Source: Mucilaginibacter lacusdianchii (GTDB lineage: Bacteria; Bacteroidota; Bacteroidia; Sphingobacteriales; Sphingobacteriaceae). From it: a stretch of 64,000 bases of DNA. Below, piece by piece: positions 41,724-41,958 of the stretch. Numbering within the stretch: the first letter of the stretch is position 1; each line of letters opens with the position of its first letter. The position numbers and the translations under genes were made by a program. The notes below the pieces were generated by a model. It saw only the letters and a list, made by a program, of their open reading frames with translations, was not told the origin of the DNA and did not search any database. The stretch spans positions 915,275 to 979,274 of the forward strand of contig NZ_WSRW01000003.1 of NCBI RefSeq assembly GCF_009770985.1, written 5' to 3'.

Positions 41724-41834
41724 ATGAAACAAGTAGTTATTTTTACCCAGCCTCAAACTTTTTGTACCTCAAACGGTGCATACTCTTTGCTTAGCGTTCG
41801 TCAGGCAGACATGTGTATGTGTTGCTGCTGTTAA
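41724..41834 (+). CDS. Cysteine-rich leader peptide upstream of metY
   Basis: A 36-codon ORF starts with ATG 10 nt after the SAM riboswitch and ends Met-Cys-Met-Cys-Cys-Cys-Cys-TAA, with an additional Cys at residue 14. Four consecutive Cys codons just before the stop are what a cysteine-sensing leader peptide needs. The final codons and stop form the 5' arm of a perfect hairpin (41824-41888). It ends 124 nt before metY. I know of no named family for this peptide; function is inferred from codon content and position. Confidence 0.7.
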
Positions 41835-41888
41835 AGTCAGTACACGCGGGTTATTCGTCATCAGAAAAACATCGTGTTTAACAGCAGC
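41824..41888 (+). promoter_or_regulatory. Attenuator-like hairpin overlapping the Cys codons
   Basis: GCTGCTGTTAAA (41824-41835), made of the last Cys codons and the stop codon, is perfectly complementary to TTTAACAGCAGC (41877-41888), with a 41-nt loop. A ribosome on the Cys codons would keep this stem open. A second small hairpin (AGGG/CCCT) follows at about 41890-41906. There is no T-run, so the output may be translational or Rho-dependent. Confidence 0.65.
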
Positions 41889-41958
41889 CAGGGAACATTA
41901 TACCCTAAACGTACCCTTCTACACATCACATAAATTTAAAATCAAAATTGCCAACGTT

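Follow-up and report, generated by a model that had tools for sequence, protein, structure and literature searches.

The window analysed here, a 64,000-nucleotide stretch of the Mucilaginibacter lacusdianchii genome, contains a metY-metX-hom cluster on the forward strand. The first gene of the cluster, metY (41959-43287), encodes an O-acetylhomoserine sulfhydrylase that scored 668.5 bits, over the cut-off, against TIGR01326. It is followed by a metX-like homoserine O-acetyltransferase gene (43370-44422, plus strand), whose score was below the NCBIfam equivalog cut-off, and by a homoserine dehydrogenase gene (44419-45633, plus strand). The upstream neighbour of the region is a gene for a PLP enzyme of cysteine and methionine metabolism (40378-41499). 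Between this gene and metY the plus strand carries a motif match to a Bacteroidota-type promoter (TTG-N21-TATCTTTG, 41518-41549), a 115-nt riboswitch aptamer (41601-41715), a short open reading frame and two hairpins. The aptamer scored 71.8 bits (E 7.8e-15) against RF00162, for which the gathering score is 44.4, and so belongs to the SAM-I class. Of the 73 genus metY loci, 63 have such a promoter match. Because the match lies upstream of the aptamer, aptamer, leader and metY are probably carried on one transcript.

The first-pass annotation of this DNA had described a 36-codon open reading frame that ends Met-Cys-Met-Cys-Cys-Cys-Cys-stop upstream of metY, and our analyses confirmed it at 41724-41834 on the plus strand, with its ATG 8 nt past the end of the aptamer. 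The putative control codons, ATG TGT ATG TGT TGC TGC TGT, occupy 41811-41831 of that strand and are directly followed by the TAA stop codon (41832-41834), from which metY is separated by 124 nt. Every one of the 73 metY loci that we examined in the genus has a leader with the Cys run, as do the metY loci of 76 out of 80 named relatives, Pedobacter, Hymenobacter, Pontibacter and Saprospiraceae among them. The misses comprise L064 and L094, where the sequence upstream of metY is too short, and L050 and L061, which had no SAM motif either in a simple scan. A Cys-codon leader is found directly behind a SAM riboswitch, and before a methionine-synthesis gene, in Mucilaginibacter and in many related soil and water bacteria.

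The composition of the genus leaders was markedly uneven along their length. In the last ten residues Cys made up 54% and Met 13%, versus 1.2% and 1.1%, respectively, in the body of the peptide. The Cys run occurs far more often than expected by chance, and Met codons are enriched together with the Cys codons, which departs from the Cys-only view of the first-pass annotation. Column entropy was 0.35 to 1.6 bits across the last six residues and rose above 3 bits (about 3.5) further in. Conservation of the tail while the body diverges is the pattern expected of control codons and not of a folded protein. It also makes it very unlikely that the reading frame encodes a small Cys-rich protein that works in trans and lies before metY by coincidence. 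The frame is intact and conserved, as such a protein would require, but its body is divergent, it has no Pfam or NCBIfam match, and its position and hairpins are fixed relative to the aptamer and metY. In being a short reading frame with a pathway-linked codon run that is kept in relatives (73/73 and 76/80), the leader has one of the features by which ribosome-mediated attenuators of the leader-peptide type are recognised.

The choice of Cys codon in the genus depended on position, the first codon of the run being TGT in 62 of 65 leaders and the second TGC in 55 of 65; for comparison, the long reading frames of the window use TGC 70 times and TGT 65 times. These counts are inflated by the relatedness of the species, and the position-specific choice suggests a constraint at the RNA level beyond that on the peptide.

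The SAM-I aptamer was present at 20 of 20 sampled metY loci of the genus. The leader ATG began 7 nt after its 3' end at 16 of these loci and 6, 10, 10 and 14 nt after it at the others. With the ATG 6-14 nt behind the P1 helix of the aptamer, closed P1 overlaps the region in which translation of the leader initiates and, from this geometry, SAM binding should mask leader initiation. The aptamer had been noted in the first-pass annotation as a neighbour of the leader, which was borne out; beyond that, its spacing suggests that it probably controls leader translation. The opposite view, that the SAM riboswitch is the sole regulator and that the reading frame and hairpins are neutral, could draw on the other SAM-I loci of the same genome, at a cysteine desulfurase gene, metH and an SDR gene, as none has such a leader directly behind its aptamer. 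We consider this highly improbable, because the Cys tail is kept at essentially all metY loci despite the divergence of the body of the reading frame. In another Bacteroidota family, a SAM-I/IV riboswitch match was observed close to a metY locus (L217, 2996-3094).

Analyses of the RNA behind the leader showed that the specific stem on which the first-pass annotation had based its cysteine attenuator is real but not general. As it had reported, 41824-41835 (GCTGCTGTTAAA) and 41877-41888 (TTTAACAGCAGC) are complementary at every position, and the resulting 12-bp stem (41824-41888, plus strand) forms an outward extension of a hairpin, here termed hairpin A. The folded region of the window was also more stable than its dinucleotide shuffles (z -2.3). 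However, the mean length of the longest such helix in the genus was 6.96 bp versus 6.69 bp in shuffled sequences. A long Cys-codon helix (10-11 bp) was found only in the window and at three loci (L300, L303 and L315), and the closest relative (L264) lacks the stem. The 12-bp stem was therefore rejected as a genus-wide switch and is lineage-specific, being limited to the species of the window and three more, while the core idea of a cysteine attenuator was strongly supported by conservation of the leader and by Cys/Met attenuators elsewhere in Bacteroidota.

Hairpin A itself is the more general feature. In the window it is formed by ACACG (41842-41846) and CGTGT (41873-41877) on the plus strand, and it begins 7 nt behind the leader stop codon. 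In most genus loci it begins 5-14 nt behind the stop codon, and its onset is 5-17 nt, mostly 8-13 nt, past the last Cys codon, a distance approximating the downstream reach of a ribosome. In this position, hairpin A would be affected differently by a ribosome at the control codons and by one at the stop codon. Its arms vary among loci (e.g., AACACGU:ACGUGUU, UAAUACGU:ACGUAUUG, UAGCACGU:ACGUGCUG, CCACGU:ACGUGG and UACACU:AGUGUA). Covariation in a MAFFT alignment was modest, with 433 of 584 cells paired versus a mean of 421 and a maximum of 438 after shuffling, and pairing in the true register far exceeded that of every slid version (102-326 cells). Hairpin B lies downstream of hairpin A, in the window at 41890-41906 (plus strand; AGGG at 41890-41893 with CCCT at 41903-41906), and its arms are very diverse yet complementary across the genus. 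Together, these data showed that a conserved Cys/Met leader, with a hairpin behind its stop codon that is conserved too, is locked to the SAM aptamer and metY.

The first-pass annotation had also remarked that no T-run follows the stem, which held for the window and likewise across the Sphingobacteriaceae examined. Hairpin B of the window has no U-tract, and no conserved U-tract was found behind hairpin A or B at the genus metY loci. An intrinsic terminator in Mucilaginibacter was rejected as a candidate, since there were weak matches at 5 of 73 loci and none was conserved. A conserved pair of antiterminator and U-tract terminator was absent in the genus of the window, Pedobacter and Hymenobacter, and the classical 3:4 structure is accordingly without support in these three genera. 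In many species base pairing is possible between the 5' arm of hairpin A (UAACACGU) and the Met-Cys-Cys codons (AUGUGUUG), so that a switch of 1:2 against 2:3 pairing may exist. This pairing was modestly better than after synonymous Cys recoding, being better at 47 loci and worse at 16, and did not exceed that obtained with the leaders of other species; we regard the statistical support for it as weak. Folding of the leader tail gave no signal relative to synonymous recoding (mean z 0.09), and inspection of the genus folds by eye showed no consistent pairing between region 3 and either the metY start region or an extended hairpin B.

A hairpin behind a Cys run would also suit programmed frameshifting at that run into the metY frame, which would yield an N-terminally extended MetY, and in the window the metY frame is indeed open from 41776 through the leader (41776-43287, a 503-codon reading frame). 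In relatives, however, this frame usually meets a stop codon shortly before metY, and most of the open frames exceed MetY by no more than a few codons. On these grounds frameshifting into metY was rejected, and we consider it extremely improbable.

The best evidence that Cys and Met codons are read by stalling came from the metY loci of two other Bacteroidota families. Family f23 (five loci) has the order Cys/Met leader, intrinsic terminator, SAM aptamer, second terminator and metY; an example of its leader is MKFSTQYTANKPACRCMCMCKSHT, with the terminator immediately behind. Family f47 (two loci) has a leader containing MQMCMMMCC and then a terminator, and no SAM aptamer was identified at its metY loci at the gathering score. 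All seven loci had a terminator of 11-15 bp plus a U-tract upstream of metY, and in all seven a competing antiterminator helix of 7-9 bp joins the 5' arm of the terminator to sequence at or near the end of the leader. Region 2 lies -2 to 18 nt from the last Cys codon at these loci, a range that overlaps the 5-17 nt between the last Cys codon and hairpin A in the genus. Textbook antiterminator and terminator pairs behind Cys/Met leaders support ribosome-mediated attenuation. At L236, L253, L260, L263 and L228, metY was observed to be preceded by a Cys/Met attenuator with a terminator and then by a SAM-I riboswitch with its own terminator.

The RNA geometry expected for ribosome-mediated attenuation is identical to that expected for an arrest peptide, in which a Cys/Met-rich nascent chain would sense copper, another thiophilic metal, redox state or sulfide, and not tRNA charging. 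The Met and Cys residues of the tail do resemble metal-binding motifs. However, the residues just added by a ribosome at a stop codon adjoin the peptidyl-transferase centre and are not exposed, and a Cys run that extends right up to the stop codon therefore lies beside that centre. In addition, the order and number of Met and Cys residues vary freely, unlike known arrest motifs, and the gene context is largely one of sulfur amino acid supply. We therefore consider an arrest peptide unlikely, and prefer the reading of Cys and Met codons through the supply of their charged tRNAs.

Based on these observations, it is likely that the 5' leader of the metY-metX-hom cluster is a two-stage sulfur sensor, through which the cell probably gauges both SAM and cysteine, and perhaps methionine as well, before MetY is made. 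We infer the attenuator role, the direction of control, the part played by SAM and the output step from sequence comparison. In the first stage, as the anatomy of the region suggests, P1 of the SAM-bound aptamer would close over the leader initiation region and the leader would not be translated, whereas at low SAM it would be. In the second stage, proposed from conservation of the codons and from the attenuators in f23 and f47, a ribosome would read the Met and Cys codons. When charged tRNA-Cys, and perhaps tRNA-Met, is short the ribosome would stall, hairpin A could form and metY would be expressed. When cysteine is ample, expression would be lowered, as the ribosome would reach the stop codon and its footprint would cover the 5' arm of hairpin A. 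The output would be an intrinsic terminator in f23 and f47. In Sphingobacteriaceae, where no intrinsic terminator was found, the output probably depends on Rho or on translation; a gene for Rho was identified. Such control would favour MetY when SAM and cysteine are both scarce, and MetY would make homocysteine directly from sulfide, sparing cysteine.

Leaders of this kind were also identified before other genes. The pattern M[C/R]CCC-stop gave 82 matches in 101 genus genomes versus 4 for a reversed-pattern control. Matches away from metY lay 54-280 nt before genes for SusC-type TonB receptors, AhpC/TSA-like, PhyH and S10-peptidase-like proteins and a porin/Pst-like ABC operon; a few matches inside other reading frames are probably due to chance. 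The Mucilaginibacter leaders 60-280 nt upstream of SusC/TonB genes were L335, L338, L346, L354, L356, L360, L369, L372, L373, L377, L378, L381, L383 and L385-L387. Upstream of some SusC/TonB leaders is a SAM riboswitch or a TlpA-like gene under SAM control, and one SusC operon with a Cys-run leader encodes a rhodanese and a redoxin. Those about 107-227 nt before a gene for an AhpC/TSA-like protein of about 210 residues were L342, L357, L362, L363, L365, L368, L370, L371, L374, L379, L380, L384 and L167. The last of these, MYRVNTTYQMYIYSLCKGCYMCCC before a redoxin-like gene, is the one further credible Cys-run leader found in the genome of the window. In another Bacteroidota family, a PAPS-reductase (cysH-like) gene is preceded, at a distance of 88 nt, by a leader (MTPIKQHHSSIASNRMMCCCCCCC, L399) with the ending MMCCCCCCC; no Cys-run leader was found at a sulfate-assimilation operon in the genus stretches examined. 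The SusC/SusD, rhodanese/redoxin, peroxiredoxin-like and cysH-like targets would fit a role in sulfur supply, while PhyH, the S10 peptidase and the Pst-like ABC operon have Cys-run leaders but no evident sulfur role. A leader ending CMCCCC was seen at L392 before a porin and a PstSCAB-like ABC operon that may carry phosphate or sulfate. Separately, four pattern matches in about 200 bases at G051:C259:6158-6364 probably represent repetitive coding DNA read in another frame.

The widest form of the proposal is that the SAM aptamer gates initiation of a Cys/Met-reading leader that in turn decides on metY, as an AND gate of riboswitch then ribosome, and that this leader is one of a set of poly-Cys leaders that control sulfur acquisition throughout Bacteroidota (TonB transporters, redoxins and cysH). 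We see the case for this form as evenly balanced. To our knowledge, sulfur regulation in Bacteroidota has been little studied. If the proposal is correct, genome annotation has overlooked a Bacteroidota cysteine sensor, which has no Pfam or NCBIfam match, and a metabolite riboswitch feeds into a ribosome-based sensor. A short reading frame ending in a Cys run would then be a simple signature for finding sulfur-responsive transporters.

Cys-run attenuators are already known from Actinobacteria. Searches of open-access main texts found neither a Bacteroidota Cys leader nor a Cys leader joined to a SAM aptamer, an absence that is weak evidence of novelty. In the passages located in Flavobacterium and Bacteroides transcriptome papers, leader-peptide attenuation is treated in general, with no cysteine case. 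In Actinobacteria, Cys-run leader peptides of cys and cbs operons were predicted in 2005, and Rho was proposed as there were no conserved terminators (Seliverstov et al. 2005, PMC1262725). The leaders described here similarly comprise a short reading frame with a Cys run at its stop codon, before sulfur genes and with no conserved intrinsic terminator; this likeness is of layout alone and does not imply common descent. They differ in belonging to another phylum, in a reading frame fixed behind a SAM-I aptamer and probably not at the 5' end of the transcript, in the Met codons mixed into the run, in the two conserved hairpins behind the stop codon, and in their targets, metY and TonB transporters. 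For mycobacteria, polycysteine leaderless ORFs are reported to be cysteine-responsive attenuators (Canestrari et al. 2020, as cited in PMC13236596). The mycobacterial ORF lies at the very 5' end of a leaderless transcript; here a predicted promoter and the 115-nt aptamer precede the reading frame, which would count against such a position.

As in classical attenuators of the trp, his and leu type, the control codons lie just before mutually exclusive hairpins, and fully so in f23 and f47. Unlike those attenuators, the family of the window has no U-tract terminator and its control codons lie directly at the stop codon. The layout also departs from that of SAM-I (S-box) riboswitches, as neither a terminator of its own nor metY follows the aptamer directly; a leader reading frame begins 6-14 nt on. 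Family f23 reverses the order of the sensors relative to the genus, with the attenuator first and the SAM aptamer second. In having two sensors in series in one leader, the arrangement resembles tandem riboswitches, including those that pair a T-box with a SAM riboswitch (PMC12452182), with the difference that the second sensor would be a translated leader peptide.
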